Assembly (NCBI GenBank): GCA_016213405.1
Contig: JACRAM010000049.1
Coordinates: 1 to 64,000 of the forward strand
Length of the DNA: 64,000 nucleotides
Direction: 5' to 3'
Source: Bacteroidota bacterium
GTDB lineage: Bacteria; Bacteroidota; Bacteroidia; Palsa-948
The translations under genes and the position numbers were made by a program. A model generated the notes under the pieces. That model ran no database searches, was not told the DNA's origin, and worked only from the letters and a program-made list of their open reading frames with translations. The first letter of the stretch is position 1, and each line of letters begins with the position of its first letter. This document shows, piece by piece, positions 12,863 through 63,579 of this stretch.

Positions 12863-14476
12863 TTAAAGCTTCACAAACTTTATTGTGAGTCGCCTTTTAT
12901 TGTCAAACACTTTGACAAAATAAATGCCACTTTCAATGTTGTTTATATCAAGTTTCAACATAGTGCTTCCTTTGTTGACCGGAAACCCGTTATTGACAAT
13001 CAATCTTCCCAGCAAATCATAAATATTTACCTGAAGTTTTTCATCTTCGATAGAAAAAAAAGTTCCGAGCAATTCATCTTGCGCTGGTGTGTTTTGTAAA
13101 ATTAAATTCCATTCATCATTTAGTTCACACGTTACGGAAATGGGTCCGTAGTATTTGTATTCTCCGTTAAAGTCGGTTTGTTTTAATCTATAGTATTGGG
13201 TATTGAGTATTGAGTATTGAGATTCATCTACAAATTCATAATGGCGAATGGTGGAAGAGTTGCCTGCGCCTTGTACCACTCCGATTAAATTCCATTCTTC
13301 CCCGTTCAAGCTGCGTTCAATGCTGAAATAATTATTATTTATTTCACTTGCAGTTGACCAATTACATTTTGCAACTCCTGAACTGCAAGAAGAAGTAAAT
13401 GAAAAAAGTTCAACTGGAAGCCAAGAACAATTGGCTGCGCCTGATTCCATTTCAATGTAAAAGCTAGAGATGGCGCCACCCGTGCCATCTACTATAACAT
13501 AATAAATGTTTCCTGCAGTTAATGAAGACATATTCAATTGCATATTACAAGTACAGCCATTGGCATATTGGGGAGAAGTGTAGGTGTCGTTTGTTGCTGC
13601 ATCAGCAGGACATCCTCCTGTAACAAGCGCGTAAGTTGGAGCAGCACAGGTTCCTGAATTGGTAAATGCAAGAATCTGCAAACTGTTGTTTACTCCTGAA
13701 ATTGTGAACTGAGCAGTGGTTCCGGATGCTTTGAAATTGAACCATGCAGAATTATTCTTCGCCCCGTTCCATGCACAAGATGGCGACCAGAAAGCAGAAG
13801 TGGTTGAAGGGTCAGTGGCAGGACCAGGATCAGCGTATCCGTTATTGGTGCCGATAAGGATGGTTCCGGTTTCTAAACACTGTACACCCGAACAATTATC
13901 ATTTGCGGTAGAGGCGGAAATATCATTATAAGAAAATGCTGCTCCGAATATCAAATCAACTTTGTTGTAGGCAATTCCTGTGGAAGCGCTTGTTTCTGTA
14001 ATTGTAATCGTCCATGTTCCGTTTGGATTTTCTCCGTTGTAAGTTGAAAAATCGTTTGCGGTGTTTGTTCGGTAGTAGCCAACATCATACGGCTCTTTGG
14101 TAGAACCATAATCTTGTGGAAATCTCAAAACAGAATGGTCTCTGTATTTTATATTAAACCGCACAATAGAACTAATGGTGCCGGTATTTGATTTGATGGT
14201 GATGGTTGTTCCTGTAGGGGATTGTAAGGTTATGATGTAAGAAGTTAATGCGCGGGTATTTGTTCCATCGCCCAAATCAATATTCACCTGCCTCAAAACA
14301 TTACTTGGCGTGCTAAGCGGATTGGAAAGCGCTGCTACTGCAATTGTTTTGGTGAGAGTTCCATTCCATGAACCGACTCCTTGTGAAGCAGTATTGGAAA
14401 ATGTCTGACTTAAAACACATAGAGGAATAGTTTCTGTCAGAAAAAATAAATAAACTATCGTTACAGGACGAAGCAT
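12863..14476 (-). CDS. T9SS type A protein with proprotein-convertase-like P domain
   Basis: I place the start at 14476 because MLRPVTIVYLFFLTETIPLC gives a signal peptide; the frame is open to an ATG at 14614, which would add 46 non-hydrophobic residues. The predicted product has 537 residues. The N-terminal part (VNIDLGDGTNTRALTSYII..., ENPNGTWTITITE) resembles the P/Homo B jelly-roll of proprotein convertases, without any protease domain. A Cys-rich second domain follows (CSGVQCLETGT, ANGCTCNMQLNM). The C-terminus has LNGEEWNLIGVVQGAGNSST...YYRLKQTD and ends with a T9SS type A sorting domain (VNIYDLLGRL...SGIYFVKVFDNKRRLTIKFVKL). A 7-bp tandem array encodes SQYSILNTQYY just before YRLKQTD. 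The gene is divergent from the helical-repeat paralogue at 14680. Confidence 0.83.
   Translation of the reverse strand: MLRPVTIVYLFFLTETIPLCVLSQTFSNTASQGVGSWNGTLTKTIAVAALSNPLSTPSNVLRQVNIDLGDGTNTRALTSYIITLQSPTGTTITIKSNTGTISSIVRFNIKYRDHSVLRFPQDYGSTKEPYDVGYYRTNTANDFSTYNGENPNGTWTITITETSASTGIAYNKVDLIFGAAFSYNDISASTANDNCSGVQCLETGTILIGTNNGYADPGPATDPSTTSAFWSPSCAWNGAKNNSAWFNFKASGTTAQFTISGVNNSLQILAFTNSGTCAAPTYALVTGGCPADAATNDTYTSPQYANGCTCNMQLNMSSLTAGNIYYVIVDGTGGAISSFYIEMESGAANCSWLPVELFSFTSSCSSGVAKCNWSTASEINNNYFSIERSLNGEEWNLIGVVQGAGNSSTIRHYEFVDESQYSILNTQYYRLKQTDFNGEYKYYGPISVTCELNDEWNLILQNTPAQDELLGTFFSIEDEKLQVNIYDLLGRLIVNNGFPVNKGSTMLKLDINNIESGIYFVKVFDNKRRLTIKFVKL
13192..13224. repeat. In-frame 7-bp tandem array (TATTGAG units)
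   Basis: Four consecutive units, tattggg followed by three of tattgag, lie inside the T9SS protein. They encode SQYSILNTQYY. The unit length matches the arms of the hairpin elements elsewhere, but only one arm is present here. Confidence 0.65.
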
Positions 14477-41069: not shown

Positions 41070-41249
41070 TTAGATGTATTCAATCGCTTTCAATTTTTTG
41101 ATAATGCGCAGAAGGGCATCTGCCATGCCTTCGTTGCGGGCTTCGCTGGTGAATGCTTTGCGCTCGCGAGCGCCTTTTATTTCTGCAGAGGTTCTCTCCA
41201 GTTCTTCATAAAGCCATTTTAAAAGCTGCTCCGCTTTTTCTTTTTTCAT
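41070..41249 (-). CDS. Small uncharacterised protein (59 aa), member of a local three-protein family
   Basis: The product MKKEKAEQLLKWLYEELERT...SEARNEGMADALLRIIKKL is charged and helical. It aligns over its whole length with the N-terminal 58 residues encoded at 43165-43821 and with the protein at 63409-63579. Shared positions are a [WY]L pair near residue 12, an A or I patch in the middle, F near residue 33, then A--E-M-DAL----KL. It is the last gene of a minus-strand run and starts 3 bp after the stop of the 37-residue membrane protein. Function unknown. Confidence 0.72.
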   Translation of the reverse strand: MKKEKAEQLLKWLYEELERTSAEIKGARERKAFTSEARNEGMADALLRIIKKLKAIEYI

Positions 41250-41252
41250 TTT

Positions 41253-41366
41253 TCATCTGGCTAAATAAAGAACATAGACCAATGTGAAAGCCGCAATGGC
41301 AAGCGCCACATACGCTACGATGAGCGCGTGCGTGGAGCGGTTGCTGTGATTTCTTCCTATATACAT
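41253..41366 (-). CDS. Single-pass membrane miniprotein (37 aa)
   Basis: The product begins MYIGRNHSNRSTHALIVAYV, continues as one hydrophobic helix (ALAIAAFTLVYVLYL) and ends AR. It lies immediately before the 59-residue gene, with 3 bp between stop and ATG, and its codons resemble those of the neighbours. No family is recognised. A membrane anchor or partner for the larger membrane proteins of the run is plausible (inference). Confidence 0.6.
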   Translation of the reverse strand: MYIGRNHSNRSTHALIVAYVALAIAAFTLVYVLYLAR

Positions 41367-41469
41367 ATTAATTTATTTTTGTTTTCTACCCTTGGGAAGA
41401 GGCGGATTGGATTTCCCAAATTTTTAATCCTCCTCTCCGCCACAGTTCCCGCAGGCAATTTTGCATTTG

Positions 41470-41546
41470 TCAGTGGATAGTGGATAGTGGATAGTTGTTT
41501 TGAATACTACTGACTACTGACCACTGACCACTAACTACTGAGTGAT
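41470..41546. repeat. Heptad-arm hairpin element (GTGGATA / ACCACTG)
   Basis: The left arm is cagtggatagtggatagtgg (tandem gtggata). The right arm is a tandem of actgacc-like units (tactgaccactgaccactaa). A 16-bp AT-rich loop separates them. It lies 6 bp beyond the stop of the coiled-coil gene and may serve as its terminator. Confidence 0.85.
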
Positions 41547-41552
41547 TAGCCA

Positions 41553-42449
41553 TTATTTTTTAGTTTCTTTTACGATGGATTGTTTTATCAATTCGGCAAG
41601 CCGATGCTCCATATCGCGCATTTCTTTTTTCAGGATGGTTTCAGCGCCCAGCATATATTGTTTTGTTTTATCAATGCTGTCTTCTGTCTCCTGCTGAAAA
41701 TGTGCCAGCGAAGAGGCTCTTTCATCGGCTTCTTTATGAAGCGCCTTGGCAGTGGTTTCTATGTTTGCTATGCGGAGCTGTGTTTGCAGCATGGCTTGCT
41801 GATGCCGGTCATCTGAAATATCGAGCCCGTGCCTGAGTTCATTGAGATCCTCTTTCAGCAAGGCGGCATCTTTTTCCTGTGCCTGCTCTAAATGATTCAT
41901 TTCGGTTTTAAGGTGGGTGAGCGATAGGTTGTACAGATAAAATTCCTTTCTGTTCCTGCGGTGGAACAGCGTGAGCAAAAAAATGAAGCACATAAAGGCA
42001 ACAGCTCCGGCAGCCAGGGCAGCCCAAACAATTTTTCGGGTTCGGGAATAGCCCTCGTAGGTTTCTTCTTCCCTTGCCCTTATTTGCGCCAGCGTTCCTT
42101 CAATGATGCCTTGCATGAGTAGTTTGTTTGTCATGATGCGGATGTCATGCGTTTCGAGTAATTTGTTCAGGTCCTGAACGGATAGATTCATGCCATCTAT
42201 TTCGCGCTCCATGTATTCTATGTTTTCTTTGTTGTCTTTTTTCAAGCGATCCAACTGTCCCCGCAGGGTTTGGATTTGCTGCGCCTCTGTTGTTTGCTGA
42301 GAAGATTGGGCAAGAGAAAGCCCCCCCCCTGAAGGGAGAAGGCAGAATACAGAATACAGAATACAGAATAACAGCCGGGCGCTGTATTTTGTATTTTTTC
42401 TGAATGCTGAATTCTGTGTTCCGTGTTCTTTTAGATTTTTGTTTTTCAT
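41553..42449 (-). CDS. Membrane protein with two coiled coils; N-terminus encoded by repeats
   Basis: A 298-residue protein of unknown family. Residues about 6-44 are encoded by two palindromic elements and form the signal-peptide-like stretch LLFCILYSVFCLLPSGGGLS followed by LAQ. A periplasmic coiled coil follows (TLRGQLDRLKKDNKENIEYM, DLNKLLETHD). A membrane helix lies at about residues 136-160 (IVWAALAAGAVAFMCFIFLL). A cytoplasmic coiled coil of about 130 residues ends the protein (MNHLEQAQEKDAALLKEDLN, TKALHKEADERASSLAHFQQ). A C9 run in the signal region is a potential slippage site. It is part of the 41.0-43.8 kb run. Confidence 0.72.
   Translation of the reverse strand: MKNKNLKEHGTQNSAFRKNTKYSARLLFCILYSVFCLLPSGGGLSLAQSSQQTTEAQQIQTLRGQLDRLKKDNKENIEYMEREIDGMNLSVQDLNKLLETHDIRIMTNKLLMQGIIEGTLAQIRAREEETYEGYSRTRKIVWAALAAGAVAFMCFIFLLTLFHRRNRKEFYLYNLSLTHLKTEMNHLEQAQEKDAALLKEDLNELRHGLDISDDRHQQAMLQTQLRIANIETTAKALHKEADERASSLAHFQQETEDSIDKTKQYMLGAETILKKEMRDMEHRLAELIKQSIVKETKK
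42317..42343. repeat. GC-core element with C9 run in signal-peptide region
   Basis: The plus strand reads AAAGCCCCCCCCCTGAAGGGAGAAGG, a degenerate form of the AGCCCC...CCCTTC...GGGAAGG layout. On the coding strand it encodes LLPSGGGLSL. Confidence 0.65.
42342..42431. repeat. Heptad-arm hairpin element (GAATACA units) inside a gene
   Basis: The left arm is four tandem gaataca units after GCA. The right arm is ctgtattttgtattttttctgaatgctgaattctgtg, its imperfect complement. The loop includes cagccgggcgctg. It encodes residues 6-36 of the coiled-coil protein, including the hydrophobic core of the signal peptide. Confidence 0.85.
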
Positions 42450-42504
42450 TTTGGTTTGTTGTTTTGGTTTTAGTTTGCCCTCTGTAAGGTTGGCGTTTAT
42501 TTTT

Positions 42505-42669
42505 TTATTTTTTATTTTCTTTATTATCTTCCTTTGCCAGCGCTGCTTTCACAATGCTTGCGAGTTGGGCATCTTTAATTTTATACCAGCGTTTGATGAG
42601 AGTTTTTTTCACGCCTTGTGTATAGTATTTGATGATTTCCTGTTCTTGCTTTGCGCTGAGTTTTCTCAT
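42505..42669 (-). CDS. Small helix-turn-helix-like protein (54 aa)
   Basis: The product starts MRKLSAKQEQEIIKYYTQGV, continues KKTLIKRWYKIKDAQLASIV and ends in a Lys/Asn-rich tail. The spacing of LSAKQEQEII...YYTQGVKKTLIKRWYKI resembles the helix-turn-helix of resolvase and Hin-type proteins, so it may bind DNA; this is a weak resemblance. Its ATG overlaps the stop of the 82-residue gene (ATGA, 42666-42669), which argues for coupled translation. Confidence 0.62.
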   Translation of the reverse strand: MRKLSAKQEQEIIKYYTQGVKKTLIKRWYKIKDAQLASIVKAALAKEDNKENKK

Positions 42670-42914
42670 TTAATATCTTTTGATTCATTTTTCATTTTCT
42701 CAAACTGCTGAAACATGGTTTCTGTATTTTCAAACATGATTTCCATTCGGGTGAAGAGGTTTTTTAATGCCATGAACATTCCGTCTGAACTCTGAAAACC
42801 AGCCTGCGGCTCATGAATTTTCCGTTCCAGTTCATAAAATATGTTTTCCATTTTATGAAACTTGTTTTCCATTTCATAAAATTTGTTTTTCAGTTCTTCT
42901 TGTTTGTTTGCCAT
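42666..42914 (-). CDS. Small coiled-coil protein with heptad repeats (82 aa)
   Basis: I place the start at 42914 (MANKQEELKNKFYEMENKF); an ORF open to 43031 would overlap the upstream gene. Three tandem seven-residue units, KFYEMEN, KFHKMEN, IFYELER, form a regular coiled coil. A second amphipathic helix near the C-terminus includes NLFTRMEIMFENTETMFQQF. No family was recognised. It lies between the 73-residue gene (11 bp upstream) and the 54-residue gene (4-bp overlap). Confidence 0.65.
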   Translation of the reverse strand: MANKQEELKNKFYEMENKFHKMENIFYELERKIHEPQAGFQSSDGMFMALKNLFTRMEIMFENTETMFQQFEKMKNESKDIK

Positions 42915-42925
42915 ATATATTATTT

Positions 42926-43147
42926 TTAACGTATATGAATCTGAAAATATTTCTGAGAGCATTTGATGGTTAAGTTCTCTTCGTAATCCCGGTCCAATTC
43001 CAATATCGCTGCGCCTTTCATCCTCTCCCACAAATAATCTTTCATCGAAATAAAAGGAGTGAGCGAAGGGCTTGTGTTCAGCCGCTTTTGTATCCTTTTG
43101 ATATCCTCATCGTTCAATTCAACGCTGTATGTTACGGTTATTATCAT
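42926..43147 (-). CDS. Small uncharacterised protein (73 aa)
   Basis: The product begins MIITVTYSVELNDEDIKRIQ and ends SQKYFQIHIR. It is predicted to be alpha/beta and soluble. The opening looks like the first strand and helix of a small regulatory or antitoxin-like fold, but I cannot assign it. It is followed 11 bp later by the coiled-coil gene, in the same run. A single-arm heptad array begins right at its start codon. Confidence 0.62.
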   Translation of the reverse strand: MIITVTYSVELNDEDIKRIQKRLNTSPSLTPFISMKDYLWERMKGAAILELDRDYEENLTIKCSQKYFQIHIR

Positions 43148-43175
43148 CGATTGCTGATTACTGATTACCGATTAC
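43148..43175. repeat. Single-arm heptad array (GATTACC units)
   Basis: The string gattgctgattactgattaccgattacc has four units of about seven bases. The same words form both arms of the element at 55828-55892. It lies in the 17-bp gap between two genes and overlaps the 3' end of the upstream gene. Confidence 0.6.
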
Positions 43176-43821
43176 CTGCATTTCCTTTGCTTTTGCCCTT
43201 GTATTTTTTAATTCCTGTAAAATAAAATACCTTGTTTGCTTTCCCCCGCTTTGACCAATGCGCTGTTCCTTGTATCGTATCGCCCGTCACACTTCCCAGC
43301 CACAATATGGTTTCGCCATTCTTTTTTTTACTGAGTGCTGCAAACAGAATCGTCACTTCCGCTTCAGAAGAATCTACCATTCGTGTATAACTGCCTGAGG
43401 AAAATCCTGAAGGAAGAGAGTCATTTTTACCTGGCGTATTTATTAAATTGGAATGCAGTTGATCATCCATAAAACTGAGTTCATTCATCAAGGGCGCTGC
43501 GGTGGCTGGCTTCCACTTTTCGGTGGGTTCAATGACGAATGTTTTTCCGGAAAGTATTTTGTCGGGCTTTTGTTTGGGCGCTGTGATTTGCCCGCCAGCG
43601 GGTGGAAAAAGCAACAGCAGGAGCGCAACTATAATCAGAAGCGGGTTTTTATTTTCGGTGATAAGTTTATTGAGAGTGCTTGCAAGGGCATCGCGCATTT
43701 GCTCGTAATTCGCCACTCTTCCAAAGCGTCCGGTGCTCTGCGCTTTGCTGATGGCTCTGTCGAGGCGGTCAGTTTCTTTTTTCAGATAGCCGACCAATTC
43801 TTTTTTCTCTTTTGGCGACAT
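43165..43821 (-). CDS. Membrane protein: small helical domain, one TM, lipocalin-like tail
   Basis: A 218-residue protein of no recognised family. Residues 1-58 (SPKEKKELVGYLKKETDRLD, FGRVANYEQMRDALASTLNK) belong to the same small family as the proteins at 41070 and 63409. A membrane helix follows (PLLIIVALLLLLF, residues about 59-71), then PPAGGQ encoded by a palindrome. The rest is beta-rich (SYTRMVDSSEAEVTILFAAL, ETILWLGSVTGDTIQGTAHW, VFYFTGIKKYKGK), like a small open barrel outside the membrane. It is the first gene of the 41.0-43.8 kb run and places the small domain on the cytoplasmic side. Confidence 0.72.
   Translation of the reverse strand: MSPKEKKELVGYLKKETDRLDRAISKAQSTGRFGRVANYEQMRDALASTLNKLITENKNPLLIIVALLLLLFPPAGGQITAPKQKPDKILSGKTFVIEPTEKWKPATAAPLMNELSFMDDQLHSNLINTPGKNDSLPSGFSSGSYTRMVDSSEAEVTILFAALSKKKNGETILWLGSVTGDTIQGTAHWSKRGKANKVFYFTGIKKYKGKSKGNAGNR
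43589..43605. repeat. Short GC palindrome (CCCGCCAGCGGG) after a TM segment
   Basis: It lies exactly at the end of the hydrophobic stretch and encodes FPPAGGQ. The position is the same as for the elements found in signal peptides, but the palindrome is short and could be chance. Confidence 0.4.
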
Positions 43822-44098: not shown

Positions 44099-44158
44099 AA
44101 CCCATTTTCCTGCGAAAGACCTATAGAGCAATAGAACAATGAGACAACGGACAATTCC

Positions 44159-44166
44159 TATCTTTG
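44159..44166 (+). promoter_or_regulatory. guaA -7 box (TATCTTTG)
   Basis: It is a perfect TAnnTTTG match ending 8 bp before the guaA ATG at 44175. The transcript would be nearly leaderless, which supports this ATG over the upstream one at 44139. Confidence 0.6.
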
Positions 44167-44174
44167 TACGCAAC

Positions 44175-45875
44175 ATGCAGGAAACCATTCTTATTCTTGA
44201 TTTCGGTTCGCAATACACGCAGTTGATTGCCCGTAAAGTGCGCGAGTTGAATGTTTACTGCGAGATTCATCCGTACACAATAGTTCGGAGTTTGGAGAAT
44301 GGAGTTGGGGGAAAATCCCTCTCCGAACTCCTGACTCCCAACTCCCAACTAAAAGGAGTGATTCTTTCAGGAAGTCCGTTTTCGGTTCGGCAGAAAAATT
44401 CTCCGCAACCCGATTTGAGCAGTATAAGAGGAAAGATTCCTCTGCTTGGTGTGTGTTATGGTGCACAACTGCTCGCACATCAATGTGGCGGAGAAGTTCA
44501 GCCATCGAAACATAGAGAATACGGAAGAGCAAATCTTTCTTTTGTGAATAATGATTCGCTTCTTTTCAAAAACATTTCTCTTAACTCGCAGGTGTGGATG
44601 AGCCACAGTGATACAATTGCATCGGCTCCTGATAATTTTGAGATTATCGCGAATACTTCTGATGTTAAGTATGCCGGCTTTCACATTAAGCCCGTAGGAA
44701 ACTTGCCCCGTAGGTCAGACGACCTACGGGGTGAATCCAACGGGCTGAAGGGAGAAAAAACATTTGGCATTCAATTTCATCCTGAAGTGTATCACACCAC
44801 CGAAGGACTAACTCTTCTGAAAAACTTTGTAGTGGATATTTGCAAATGCTCTCAATCGTGGACTCCTTCTTCTTTCATCGAAACAACTATTGCTGAACTC
44901 CAGCACAAATTAGGGAACGACAAAGTAGTGATGGCGCTTTCCGGAGGAGTAGATTCAACCGTTGCGGCAACATTGCTGCACAAAGCCATAGGGAAAAACC
45001 TCTTTTGCATTTTCGTGGATAATGGTTTGCTTCGCAAAGATGAATTCAAAAACGTGCTGCATTCGTATAAAGACATGGGCTTGAACGTGAAAGGAGTTGA
45101 TGCGAAAAAGTTTTTCTACAAAGCCTTGAAAGGAAAGAAAGAGCCCGAAGCAAAACGAAAAGCCATTGGCAAAACCTTCATCGAAGTGTTTGATAAAGAA
45201 GCGAAGAAGTTAGGAGCTATGAGTTCGGAGTTAGGAGTGAAAAGGAAAAAATCTTCGAACTCCCGACTCCGAACTCAGAACCAGATTAAATGGCTGGGGC
45301 AAGGGACTATTTACCCGGATGTGATAGAAAGCATTTCAGTGAAAGGTCCTTCTGCCACCATCAAATCACATCATAATGTGGGCGGGCTTCCAGCGAAAAT
45401 GAAAATGAAAGTGGTGGAACCGCTTAACTCGCTCTTTAAAGATGAAGTGAGAAGAGTGGGCAGAAAATTAGGTGTTACTGAAAACATTTTAGGAAGGCAT
45501 CCGTTCCCCGGACCGGGTTTAGGGATAAGAATTCTTGGAGACATAACAGAAGAAAAGGTACGAATCTTGCAAGAGGTTGACCATATTTACATCGAAGAAT
45601 TGAAAAGCGCAGGACTTTATAATCAGGTTTGGCAGGCTGGAGCAATTTTCTTGCCGATACAATCGGTGGGCGTAATGGGCGATGAACGTACGTATGAAAA
45701 TGTTATCGCTCTTCGCGCAGTAACTTCTACCGATGGAATGACTGCCGACTGGTGCCATCTGCCGTATGAATTTCTCTCAAAAGTCTCCAATGAAATAATT
45801 AATAAAGTGAAAGGAGTGAATCGTGTGGTATATGACATCAGTTCAAAACCGCCCGCAACAATTGAATGGGAATGA
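44175..45875 (+). CDS. guaA: GMP synthase, glutamine-hydrolysing, with three repeat-encoded insertions
   Basis: GuaA converts XMP to GMP with glutamine and ATP. I choose ATG 44175 ([20 protein letters not shown]). The glutamine amidotransferase domain has [11 protein letters not shown] (nucleophile Cys) and [11 protein letters not shown] (catalytic His and Glu). The ATP pyrophosphatase has [15 protein letters not shown], and the dimer domain [17 protein letters not shown]. At 566 residues it is about 40 longer than the 525-residue E. coli enzyme. Three stretches that homologues lack coincide with palindromic elements: residues about 36-58 ([20 protein letters not shown]), 171-190 ([18 protein letters not shown]) and 345-369 ([20 protein letters not shown]). 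All catalytic motifs remain intact and in frame, so the enzyme is probably functional. Confidence 0.97.
44282..44350. repeat. Heptad-arm hairpin element, insertion 1 in guaA
   Basis: The left arm agttcggagtttggagaatg is followed by gagttggggg. The right arm ctccgaactcctgactccca continues actcccaact. The arms are tandem 7-bp units (AGTTCGG-like) in inverted orientation. The element is in frame between the early strands of the amidotransferase domain. Confidence 0.92.
44689..44746. repeat. Nested palindromic element, insertion 2 in guaA
   Basis: The outer ends are agcccgt and acgggct; the inner hairpin is ccccgtaggtc-agac-gacctacgggg. It lies in frame, about nine codons before the catalytic FHPE motif. 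Confidence 0.92.
45209..45282. repeat. Heptad-arm hairpin element, insertion 3 in guaA
   Basis: The left arm agttaggagctatgagttcg is complemented by the right arm cgaactcccgactccgaact. It uses the same AGTTCGG family of units as insertion 1. It lies in frame just before [15 protein letters not shown]. Confidence 0.92.
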
Positions 45876-49621: not shown

Positions 49622-49816
49622 AGGTAAGGTTGTTTGCTAAGCAGGTAAGGTTGTTTGCTGAGCAGGTGAGGTTGTTTGCTGAGCAGGTGAGGTTGTTTGC
49701 TGAGCAGGTGAGGTTGTTTGCTGAGCAGGTGAGGTTTATTCGTAATCAGGTAGGGTTTATTCAGACCAGTTCTTGGGTTATTCGTAAGCAGGTATGGGTT
49801 ATTGCTGAGCAGATTT
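49622..49816. repeat. Minisatellite of nine degenerate 21-bp units
   Basis: The core unit is aggttgtttgctgagcaggtg; units 2-5 are nearly identical and units 6-9 diverge (toward tgggttattcgtaagcaggta). The length is a multiple of three, so both strands are open (LSKQPHL heptads on minus, LFAEQVR on plus). Neither frame has a convincing start or promoter. I treat it as non-coding, with coding possible. Confidence 0.8.
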
Positions 49817-51394: not shown

Positions 51395-53344
51395 ATGAAG
51401 GTTACTCTAAAGGAAATACAACTCCTGCTCATTCGTCTTTCCATTGCGCTGCTCACCTACCCTATCTGCAAAACACTTTTCTATCTTTTCAATTACCATT
51501 ATTTCTCTGATGTATCGGTGGGAGATTTTCTATCCATTTTGTTTTTCGGATTGAGGTTTGATGTTTCTGCTTTAGTATTGATGAATGTTCCGTTCACGCT
51601 TCTGCACATTATTCCATTTGGTTTTACAAAAAAGAAGTGGTATCAACTGGTTTTAAAAACTGTTTTCCTGACCGTAAACGGAATCGCCATTCTTGCCGAT
51701 TGCGTTGACCTTGAATATTACAAATTCACACTCAAGCGGACTACCTCAGATTTTTTTGATTTGTTTGGGCTTGGCTCTGATATTTCTTCCCTGCTTCCAC
51801 AATACATAAAAGATTTCTGGTATGTGGTATTGATTGCAGCAACGCTGATTATATTTATTTCATGGCTGTATAATAAAACAACAAAGTTCGGAGTTCGGAG
51901 TTCGGGAGAAAGTAATACTGGATTCAACTCCCAACTCCGAACTCCCAACTCCCAACTAATTGCGAGATTGATTTCCTGGATTATTCTGAATTCTGCGTTA
52001 ATCGGGATAATGATTATCGGCTTCAGAGGAGGATTACAGATGCGCCCCATCATGACCATCAACGCATCGGAATATGTTTCGGCAAAAAATATTCCGCTCA
52101 TTATCAATACTCCTTTCTCTATCATTAAAAGCTACGGACTGGAAGAACTTGAAGATAAGAAATATTTTCCGGAAGAAGAACTTCTTAAACATTTTAATCC
52201 TATCCATCAACCATTAACCATTAGCCATCAACCATCATCAAATGTATTTATCCTCATCATGGAAAGTTTTTCCAAAGAATATACTTCTCTCGGAGGAAAA
52301 AAAAGTTACACTCCTTTTCTCGATTCTTTGATGAATGAAAGCATGGTGTTTGACAATGCATTTGCTAATGGGAAAAAATCGATTGAAGGAATTCCGGCTG
52401 TGCTTGCCAGCCTGCCCGCACTTATGAACGAATCCTTTATTACTTCAACTTACTGTGGCAATCGCTTCAACTCTCTTTCAAACACATTAAGAAGCAAAGG
52501 ATATTCGTCCGCATTTTTTCACGGAGGAACCAACGGCACTATGGGCTTTGATGCTTTTTGCGGTTCAGCAGGATTTGATAAATACTATGGCAGATATGAA
52601 TACAACAATGATAAAGATTATGATGGCGATTGGGGAATCTGGGATGAGCCGTTCCTGCAATATGCTGAAAAGAATGTGAGCCGGATGAAGCAACCCTTTC
52701 TTGCGGCATTGTTTTCTCTTACTTCGCATCATCCGTTTACAATTCCTGAAAAATATCAAACGCAATTCACAGGAGGTGAACTTCCGATTTTAAAGAGCGT
52801 GCAGTACGCTGATTACTCGCTGAAAAAGTTTTTTGAATCCGCTTCAAAAGAAAAATGGTTTGACAGCACGCTGTTTGTCATCACGGCTGACCATGCAGGT
52901 CCATCGGAAGATAATGTTTACAGCAACAGCGCTGGAGGTTTTGAAATTCCAATTGTCTTTTACCAACACAACAGTTCTTTCAAAGGAATAAATCACAAAG
53001 TCACCCAGCAGATTGACATCATGCCAACTATTTTGAATTACCTGAATTACAATTCATCCTTTTTTTCATTTGGAAACAATGCGCTTGATACAATTCAAAC
53101 GGGCTATGCTGTAAATTTCATTAATGATGTTTACCAGATTTTTCAGAATGATTATCTTTTGCAGTTTGACGGAAGAAAAACAATCGCTTTGTACAATTAC
53201 AAAACCGATTCACTTCTGAAAAATAACCTTCATGAGCAAACTTCAAAAGTTTTTAAAACTTTTGAAGTTTCAATGGAAGCAAAACTGAAAGCAATTATAC
53301 AGACCTATCATCACGCAATGATTGCCAACAAACTTACTGAATGA
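51395..53344 (+). CDS. LTA-synthase-like membrane sulfatase / phosphoethanolamine-type transferase
   Basis: A 649-residue protein. About five N-terminal membrane segments precede an extracytoplasmic alkaline-phosphatase-fold domain from residue 280 on. Visible motifs are NVFILIMESFSKEYTSLGG (metal-binding Glu), ANGKKSIEGIPAVLASLP (likely nucleophilic Ser), SAFFHGGTNGTMGFDAF and FVITADHAGPS (metal-binding Asp and His). Members add glycerol phosphate or phosphoethanolamine to envelope polymers; the substrate here is unknown. A hairpin element adds residues 163-188 between membrane segments (GVRSSGESNTGFNSQLRTPN). A one-arm array encodes HQPLTISHQP near residue 275. A box TATCTTTA lies 10 bp upstream of the start. 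Confidence 0.92.
   Translation: MKVTLKEIQLLLIRLSIALLTYPICKTLFYLFNYHYFSDVSVGDFLSILFFGLRFDVSALVLMNVPFTLLHIIPFGFTKKKWYQLVLKTVFLTVNGIAILADCVDLEYYKFTLKRTTSDFFDLFGLGSDISSLLPQYIKDFWYVVLIAATLIIFISWLYNKTTKFGVRSSGESNTGFNSQLRTPNSQLIARLISWIILNSALIGIMIIGFRGGLQMRPIMTINASEYVSAKNIPLIINTPFSIIKSYGLEELEDKKYFPEEELLKHFNPIHQPLTISHQPSSNVFILIMESFSKEYTSLGGKKSYTPFLDSLMNESMVFDNAFANGKKSIEGIPAVLASLPALMNESFITSTYCGNRFNSLSNTLRSKGYSSAFFHGGTNGTMGFDAFCGSAGFDKYYGRYEYNNDKDYDGDWGIWDEPFLQYAEKNVSRMKQPFLAALFSLTSHHPFTIPEKYQTQFTGGELPILKSVQYADYSLKKFFESASKEKWFDSTLFVITADHAGPSEDNVYSNSAGGFEIPIVFYQHNSSFKGINHKVTQQIDIMPTILNYLNYNSSFFSFGNNALDTIQTGYAVNFINDVYQIFQNDYLLQFDGRKTIALYNYKTDSLLKNNLHEQTSKVFKTFEVSMEAKLKAIIQTYHHAMIANKLTE
51885..51958. repeat. 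Heptad-arm hairpin element inside the sulfatase gene
   Basis: The left arm is three tandem agttcgg units; the right arm is aactcccaactccgaactcc continuing caactcccaact. It is the same unit family as guaA insertions 1 and 3. It is in frame in the loop before the last membrane segment. Confidence 0.92.
52202..52240. repeat. Single-arm heptad array (CCATTAA units) in the sulfatase gene
   Basis: The units ccatcaa, ccattaa, ccattag, ccatcaa, ccatc follow each other at 7-bp steps. They encode HQPLTISHQPS at the junction between membrane and catalytic domains. Confidence 0.7.
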
Positions 53345-61785: not shown

Positions 61786-63264
61786 ATGCATCATCATTAC
61801 GCTCTAAAAATAGTTGGATTTTGTCTTCTCTCGCTCGGAATTATTAACTCTCCCATTTGCAGCCATGTTAATGATTCCTCTGCTGATTCAGATTCTCTCA
61901 AAAACGCCATTGATATTCCTCAGATTCTCACCAGAAAAAAATTGGTTGCGCTTACCGACAATAGTTCCACCAGCTATTTTATATATAAAGGAGAGCCGAT
62001 GGGTTATGAATACGAACTGCTTCAATTGTTCGCCAAGAGTCTGAATGTGGAGCTAAAAATCATTATGGCTAAGAATATGAATGAAATTCTTGAGCAGCTA
62101 AGAAAAGGTGAAGCGGATATTGTTTGCGCAAACCTGACAGTGACAGAAGAACGGATGAAAAAAGTTAATTTCTCTGAGCCACTGATTTATACAAGGCAGG
62201 TTCTTGTTCAAAAAAAACCAAAAGGATGGCAGAACATGAATGCAGAAAAGCTCAGCGGGAATCTTGTCCGCACAGCCATTGATTTGTCAGGAAAGAATGT
62301 TTATGTAAGAAAAAGTTCATCCTTCTATTCCCGCCTGGTGAACCTTCAGGAAGAAATAGCTTCAAAAATAAATATCACTGAAGTTCCAGGTGAAATCACA
62401 ACGGAAGAATTAATTGCAATGGTGGCAAGCGGAAAAATACCCTACACCATTGCCGATGAAAATGTGGCCATGGTAAATCAAACCTATTATCCGCAGATAG
62501 ATATAAAAACAGCCATCAGTTTTCCCCAGAAGATTGCCTGGGCTGTAAATAAAAAATCTCCTCTTCTGCTTTCTGAATTAAACAGCTGGATACAAAATCA
62601 GAAAACCACTTCTGACTACGCGGTTCTGTACAACAAATATTTCAGAAATCCTAAAGGCGCTGGGCAAAGAAATGAAAGCCAGTTCTCTTCTTTCGGAGGA
62701 AATAAAATTTCTCCCTACGATGATATGATAATTGCTTACAGCAAAGAAATCGGATGGGACTGGCGCTTGCTTGCTTCGATGATTTATCAGGAATCAAAAT
62801 TCAACCCCAATGCTGAATCGTGGGCTGGCGCCTGCGGGCTCATGCAGATGATTCCTTCCACGGCTGAGATTTACGGAATTGATACCTGCGGGGCAACGCC
62901 TATTCAAAGCATTGATGCAGGAACAAGGCATATCATCAAACTGGATAATTACTGGTCGAAATTAATTTCAAATAAAGAGGAACGGATTAAGTTTATTCTT
63001 GCATCCTACAACGTAGGATTAGGGCATATTATTGACGCAAGAAATCTTGCAAAAAAATTCGGGAAGAACCCTGACTTGTGGTATAATAACGTGGAGAAAT
63101 TCATCCTCCTTAAATCAAAACCGCTGTATTATAACGATCCGGTTGTGCGATGCGGCTATTGCCGTGGCGAAGAGCCCTATAATTATGTCCGCGAAATCCT
63201 TTCAAGGTATGAGCATTATAAAAATGTGATAAATGAAAAAGAACCATTGGTAGCCACTATTTGA
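61786..63264 (+). CDS. MltF-like membrane-bound lytic transglycosylase
   Basis: A 492-residue periplasmic enzyme that cuts peptidoglycan with anhydro-muropeptide release. After the signal sequence, residues about 45-290 form a type 3 solute-binding-like domain (GEPMGYEYELLQLFAKSLNV, GEADIVCANLTVTEERMKKV). The SLT domain follows, with DWRLLASMIYQESKFNPNAE (catalytic Glu in YQES), AGACGLMQMIPSTAEIYGI and FILASYNVGLGHIIDA. The architecture matches MltF. No lipobox Cys follows the signal (SPICSHVND has a Cys that could serve). Confidence 0.93.
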   Translation: MHHHYALKIVGFCLLSLGIINSPICSHVNDSSADSDSLKNAIDIPQILTRKKLVALTDNSSTSYFIYKGEPMGYEYELLQLFAKSLNVELKIIMAKNMNEILEQLRKGEADIVCANLTVTEERMKKVNFSEPLIYTRQVLVQKKPKGWQNMNAEKLSGNLVRTAIDLSGKNVYVRKSSSFYSRLVNLQEEIASKINITEVPGEITTEELIAMVASGKIPYTIADENVAMVNQTYYPQIDIKTAISFPQKIAWAVNKKSPLLLSELNSWIQNQKTTSDYAVLYNKYFRNPKGAGQRNESQFSSFGGNKISPYDDMIIAYSKEIGWDWRLLASMIYQESKFNPNAESWAGACGLMQMIPSTAEIYGIDTCGATPIQSIDAGTRHIIKLDNYWSKLISNKEERIKFILASYNVGLGHIIDARNLAKKFGKNPDLWYNNVEKFILLKSKPLYYNDPVVRCGYCRGEEPYNYVREILSRYEHYKNVINEKEPLVATI

Positions 63265-63408: not shown

Positions 63409-63579
63409 ATGAATCCAGAAAAACTACACGATTTTGTTACTTGGTTAAATGGTCAAGTAGAACATCTCTCCTCGGCAATTAACGAGGCTCATGATGACAG
63501 TAACTTCGGCAGAGAAGCTCAATTTGAAGGTATGCGCGATGCATTCATGCGGTGCCTTAATAAACTGACAAGAGAATAA
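63409..63579 (+). CDS. Small protein (56 aa), third member of the local small family
   Basis: I start at 63409 (MNPEKLHDFVTWLNGQVEHL) because its two local relatives begin at the same position; an ATG at 63376 is also in frame. The rest is SAINEAHDDSNFGREAQFEG followed by MRDAFMRCLNKL. The protein aligns with the one at 41070-41249 and the cytoplasmic head of the membrane protein at 43165-43821. It is soluble and helical. Function unknown; it is likely a partner or adaptor, because in one relative the domain is fused to a membrane anchor. Confidence 0.72.
   Translation: MNPEKLHDFVTWLNGQVEHLSSAINEAHDDSNFGREAQFEGMRDAFMRCLNKLTRE

Follow-up and report, generated by a model that had tools for sequence, protein, structure and literature searches.

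The subject of this analysis is a run of seven small genes on the minus strand, between positions 41,070 and 43,821 of a stretch of 64,000 nucleotides (the window; positions 1 to 64,000 of contig JACRAM010000049.1, assembly GCA_016213405.1) from a member of the Bacteroidota in the Palsa-948 lineage of the class Bacteroidia. The genes are numbered g1 to g7 in the order of transcription; the genome to which the window belongs is called G000, and the other genomes of the same genus are G001 to G006, of which G006 represents a sister species and G001 a second relative. All seven open reading frames (ORFs) proposed by a first-pass annotation of this DNA are present where it placed them, and each starts with ATG. 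Sequence comparison gives us high confidence that g1 and g3 to g7 are a real, lineage-specific module occurring in a few related species of Bacteroidota, and g2 is probably a member as well.

The intergenic spacings from g1 to g7 are 17, 11, -4, 55, 186 and 3 nt, so that the tight packing described earlier holds for four junctions but not for g4/g5 (55 nt) and g5/g6 (186 nt), the latter gap containing 7-nt repeat DNA at 41472-41541. The translational coupling proposed for g3 and g4 corresponds to a real ATGA overlap at 42666-42669. Four minus-strand ORFs of at least 70 codons are observed as compared to 0.42 in shuffled sequence, and two of at least 200 codons as compared to none. The composition of the region is unremarkable except for its AT skew; neither tRNA genes nor Rfam RNAs were found in it, and a sigma-70 scan gave a number of sites not above that in shuffles. 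The neighbours are housekeeping genes, such as guaA, a deformylase gene and a ruvX-like gene. The GuaA protein (44139-45875) itself has in-frame insertions relative to a sister species near residues 57-68, 184-203 and 359-380, at least the first of which overlies heptamer-rich repeat DNA.

The first gene, g1 (43165-43821; 218 residues), consists of two halves that differ in origin: in a search of its own genome, the N-terminal half matches an ORF at 63409 and the C-terminal half matches two secreted paralogues. The AlphaFold2 model (mean predicted local distance difference test score, pLDDT, 74) shows a hairpin of two helices followed by a hydrophobic helix and by eight strands, which correspond to an N-terminal domain of 57 residues (two-helix domain, residues 3-55), a membrane segment at about residues 59-79 and a barrel at residues 94-205. 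The first-pass annotation described the tail as outer beta-barrel-like, an assignment that has to be replaced by a soluble, eight-stranded, lipocalin-like barrel of which the relatives are secreted proteins. The barrel is 34-36% identical to the two paralogues and to one homologue in G006. The solved folds closest to the g1 model include lipocalin-type barrels, none of them significant; the best lipocalin-type match of the barrel is to nitrophorin (expectation value, E, 0.011; template modelling score 0.28-0.33), and no match has E <=0.001. As a stand-alone protein the barrel family occurs in 61 of 295 genomes of the class (about 20%), and neither this family nor the two-helix domain has a Pfam entry. 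The lipocalin-like proteins listed for Bacteroidia are all stand-alone, and those read in detail carry an N-terminal signal peptide, whereas fusion of the barrel to a cytoplasmic helical domain is seen only in g1 and its syntenic orthologue in G006 (L087:5106-5744; E ~2e-39, both domains). The latter has a lipobox-like LLSC motif after the hydrophobic stretch.

The two-helix domain of g1 recurs in free form in g7 (41070-41249; 59 residues) and in a solo protein encoded on the plus strand at 63409-63579 (56 residues), a relationship that escaped the first-pass annotation together with the third copy itself. Profile A2 recovers g7 with E 1e-22 and the g1 N-terminus with E 4e-23, and includes both sequences; matches of single sequences, independent of this profile, link g7 to the solo form with E 7e-7 and the g1 N-terminus to it with E 2e-8. 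A copy of g7 with 68% identity lies at G000:C114:14313-14474 (L023), alone amid unrelated genes. The domain is carried by 40 of 395 class genomes (about 10%), and in most fetched loci the solo form lies directly downstream of, and on the same strand as, a gene for an MltF-like transglycosylase. Within the window only the 63409-63579 copy follows such a gene (a lytic transglycosylase gene at 61786-63264, of the MltF-like architecture SBP_bac_3 plus SLT); g1 and g7 adjoin guaA instead. Some solo loci have no MltF gene, the domain being found beside a NUDIX gene or in tandem; at G103:C49:5080-5492 and G373:C82:34842-35227, two tandem copies stand beside a NUDIX gene.

Since the solo domain usually follows an MltF-like gene, it may be argued that this domain is at root a partner of MltF-type proteins and that the operon near guaA is a second envelope-maintenance set, in which case the occurrence of related genes in operons for polyhydroxybutyrate (PHB) storage, described below, would be incidental. 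The membrane or envelope nature of g5, g6 and the barrel would suit such a role in the cell wall. However, the loci that carry the module include no cell-wall gene, and the solo domain is in some cases retained where MltF is absent. In a phylogenetic tree, the domains of module type are placed away from the solo form found in the same genus. One clade (support 98/94, with the divergent copy of the G006 PHB operon omitted) unites the helical domains of g1 from both species with that of a phasin-linked locus in G001; it stays separate from the solo proteins, and the domain from the G006 PHB operon joins it when added (90/81). Outside this clade, g7 pairs with its C114 copy. As the aligned rows have a length of only about 57 residues and the tree includes two long branches, this result is supportive rather than conclusive. 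The same domain exists in a widespread, usually MltF-linked solo form and in module forms that, in the genomes sampled, are restricted to the genus, diverged, and fused to or clustered with membrane proteins. We regard the cell-wall explanation as possible, but on the doubtful side.

For g2 (42926-43147; 73 residues), an orphan ORF, no homologue was detected in any fetched locus, in plasmids, in Pfam or in NCBIfam; the genome collection was not searched with it. The first half of g3 (42666-42914), which encodes a coiled coil of 82 residues, is made of about 3.4 copies of a 21-nt unit (array 42825-42896). Its orthologue in G006 (L087:4841-5092) is 76% identical (E 3e-35), with proportions of differing synonymous and nonsynonymous sites (pS and pN) of 0.72, which is near saturation, and 0.13, and a ratio of nonsynonymous to synonymous substitution rates (dN/dS) of about 0.06. 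A protein that is still 76% identical when synonymous sites are nearly saturated indicates that g3 is a selected gene. Elsewhere among 345 class genomes g3 gave only weak matches, most of which run across stop codons or 21-nt repeats, and these were discounted; alignments of g3 and g5 against named genomes revealed no relatives. Another 21-nt tandem array, with about 5.5 copies and 97% match, lies between large genes at 49622-49803. Purifying selection also acts on g6 (41253-41366; 37 residues), a miniprotein with a single membrane segment of which the orthologue at the guaA locus of G006 is 59% identical (dN/dS ~0.23). A third homologue occurs in the phasin locus of G001 (E 3.5e-5), and all three g6 homologues found in the genus adjoin or lie near a helical-domain gene.

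The product of g4 (42505-42669; 54 residues), which starts within the stop codon of g3, is predicted to fold into three helices (residues 6-17, 22-29 and 33-52; core pLDDT ~92) resembling a helix-turn-helix (HTH). No significant match in the PDB was obtained by fold or by sequence; the neighbours listed by fold are largely DNA-binding domains, none of them significant. The model is consistent with the possible DNA-binder of the first-pass annotation, at the level of a predicted fold. This raises the possibility of membrane signalling, in which the barrel of g1 would sense a periplasmic ligand, the helical domain would relay the signal to g7, and g4 would alter transcription of the operon or of storage genes. 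The modelled g1 protein, which crosses the membrane and has a domain to either side of it, would fit such a chain. Yet the module lacks an enzyme or receiver domain, neither of the phasin-linked loci has g4, and the similarity of g4 to one member of a tandem pair of g4-like genes at the corresponding site in G006 is weak (E 8e-4). Signalling is accordingly considered unlikely.

The g5 gene (41553-42449) encodes a protein of 298 residues. Its hydropathy suggests a signal peptide, a periplasmic stretch with a coiled coil, one membrane segment (residues 144-162) and a cytoplasmic coiled coil. Of 295 class genomes, G000 and G006 alone gave full-length matches; the G006 homologue (L024:6320-7252) is 29% identical over its length (E 7e-13). 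Matches in G015, to a PorP/SprF-type protein, and in G059 are partial and were taken as coiled-coil noise. The codons for the signal peptide contain two repeat tracts (42321-42370): (CAGAATA)x4 at 42343-42370, the longest perfect 7-nt array of the window, and a run of nine G (C9 on the complementary strand) at 42321-42329, its only C/G homopolymer of at least 8 nt. In the G006 homologue this position is occupied by another 7-nt array, (GTACAAT)x3 (L024:6413-6433). To judge from the sequence, slippage in the heptamer array or the G9 tract may shift the frame of g5 and act as a switch. Arrays of 7 nt are, however, common in this genome, also within other genes, and the apparent switch may thus be background. 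Perfect arrays occur in the window at 13200-13220, 41472-41492, 42343-42370 and 51885-51905, some of them in coding genes, with none in shuffles; phaC of G006 also contains one (L024:9297-9331). The terminator-like matches at 42320-42343 run over the G9 tract; we did not accept them as terminators.

The first-pass annotation named homologues that are never co-located as an observation that would speak against a functional unit. Such homologues are in fact found together in two sister genomes. Beside guaA, the module is present in two of the seven genomes of the genus. The guaA side in G006 has g1, g3, two g4-like genes, the gene of a small protein that we call MSN from its N-terminal residues, an ORF with 21-nt repeats, a gene for a larger protein of an unnamed family, and g6, with the order g1-g3-g4a-g4b-...-g6 preserved; homologues of g5 and g7 occur elsewhere in the genus. 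A tandem-repeat ORF beside a gene for a protein of about 230-270 residues recurs in G006 at L024:2827-3834, L087:3091-4265 and L146:5623-6937, and those at L024 and L146 are homologous to each other.

The G006 homologues of g5, of the free helical domain and of the free barrel lie not at guaA but in a PHB operon, where they are consecutive except for one gene for an acyl carrier protein (ACP). All on one strand, and spaced by -3 to 141 nt, the genes of this operon are ph1-ph2-ph3-MSN-g5-ACP-helical domain-barrel-phaC-phaB-SDR, where ph1 to ph3 are phasin-like genes; the phaC product matches PhaC_N with E 6e-66 and the ACP matches PF00550 with E 6e-16. The MSN protein is common to this operon and the guaA locus of the same genome (E 2e-9). 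A similar arrangement on contig C60 of G001 reads phasin-phasin-g5-like-DUF5652-helical domain-ACP-g6. Presence of the same parts in a PHB operon of the sister species, along with phasins, an ACP and PhaC, is the ground for the interpretation that we prefer, namely that the genes constitute an inner-membrane accessory module that is able to sit within a PHB-storage operon and would serve carbon storage at the membrane. The first-pass annotation had missed this connection. We put it forward tentatively, as a real possibility that falls short of being probable.

Several observations weigh against a storage function. The window cluster itself includes neither phaC nor a phasin-like gene; it lies beside guaA, and the single phaC of its genome is located away from the module, at G000:C54:23172. 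Among the phaC-bearing genomes of the genus, only G006 has the module within a phaC operon. The G001 contig with the module is 4.1 kb long and has phasins but no phaC, its g5-like protein is alike in architecture only, with no detectable sequence similarity, and its g6 homologue has no clean start codon. The PHB link hence rests on two genomes. Furthermore, the phasin-like genes were named by their neighbourhood (best Phasin_2 match E 0.01), and the widespread solo helical domain is tied to MltF rather than to PHB. Beside guaA, G001, G002, G004 and G005 have other genes and not the module, and G003 has no module genes in the 0.9 kb covered upstream of guaA.

This patchiness, and the gene subsets and orders that differ from locus to locus, can also be explained by a loose cassette, i.e. 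weakly constrained small genes without a joint function, which accumulate and are rearranged where insertions are tolerated and where 7-nt and 21-nt repeats abound. The repeats between and within the genes agree with this, as do the presence beside guaA in only two genomes and the lack of known relatives of g2. On the other hand, the strong constraint on g3 is not what such a cassette predicts, nor is the fusion of helical domain and barrel in g1 of both species. Moreover, genes for the helical domain and for the barrel both lie less than 2 kb from each of the two g5 homologues, whose loci are unrelated, and g6 likewise recurs together with the helical domain at unrelated sites. A loose cassette of this kind is conceivable, if somewhat doubtful.

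None of the seven proteins had a match in Pfam, NCBIfam, PHROGs or PADLOC beyond the level of chance or of coiled coils, and profile searches of PDB sequences found nothing. An envelope-linked set of proteins that these libraries do not name is supported by the membrane segments of g1, g5 and g6, the coiled coil of g5 and the co-location of homologues elsewhere. The suggestion of an envelope-linked complex or a regulatory or defence-like island survives in its first part, as an envelope-linked set of genes. Anti-phage defence or a phage-derived island, which small, clustered and patchily distributed genes of unnamed families may bring to mind, is most improbable: PADLOC has no match for any of the seven proteins, the PHROGs matches are weak and of coiled-coil or membrane type (best E 1e-4), the module has no recognisable nuclease, toxin or sensor, and the neighbours are housekeeping genes. 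In phage records g1 and the solo domain were not found, and among viral contigs g3 has no match and the solo domain a single, unconvincing one of 22 residues.

If the module does serve carbon storage, its origin and mode of action can be envisaged as follows. The two-helix domain would have been duplicated and fused with a secreted lipocalin-like barrel. The g5 protein would act as a scaffold in the inner membrane, extending a coiled coil to either side of it, into the periplasm and into the cytoplasm. In g1, the helical domain would face the cytoplasm, and the barrel, on the periplasmic side, would bind a ligand or lipid. The proteins g7 and g3 might be cytoplasmic helical partners and g6 a small membrane subunit, whereas g4 may autoregulate the operon. 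At the membrane, such a complex could position or coat granules, or handle lipids or hydroxyacyl groups. In the species of the window the module would have become separated from phaC and now lies beside guaA. Of this picture, the gene content, the homologies, the common gene order, the selection on g3 and g6 and the helical-domain clade are observed, and the topology, the assembly into a complex and every function are inferred.

Known granule-associated proteins are mostly soluble, and we know of no polyhydroxyalkanoate (PHA) operon described with a membrane coiled-coil protein, an ACP and a lipocalin-like protein. There is a precedent for an envelope protein in PHA biology, since the envelope lipoprotein OprL/Pal has been reported to occur at PHA granules, with less PHA when it is lost (PMC11103573). 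Coiled coils are present in many phasins, and the granule organisers of the PhaM and PhaF type are coiled-coil accessory proteins linked to granule placement (PMC5658603). Their likeness to the module is one of role only, as these organisers are soluble and bind the nucleoid whereas g5 and g1 are membrane proteins. PHB and PHA storage operons are among the closest known systems, in that the one of G006 includes homologues of g5, the helical domain and the barrel, and G001 has similar parts beside phasin-like genes; the module of the window differs by its distance from phaC and by having no phasin of its own. A more far-reaching version, in which an undescribed membrane apparatus, made of a two-helix adaptor that is partly fused to a barrel, a coiled-coil scaffold, miniproteins and, in the relatives, a dedicated ACP, ties PHB storage to the envelope, with a scaffold gene that may be switched by slippage, is rather unlikely. 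The gene set is new to the libraries, and its setting, as accessory genes of a storage or envelope operon, is likely of a kind already known.

To our knowledge, PHB storage in Bacteroidota has been little studied. The distribution of the module is narrow, and its link to PHB permits a specific test. If the storage interpretation is correct, the module would be a concrete candidate for how PHB granules connect to the cell envelope. It would also provide the first functional lead for two unnamed families that are common in the class: of the genomes sampled, about 10% have the two-helix domain and about 20% have the lipocalin-like secreted protein.

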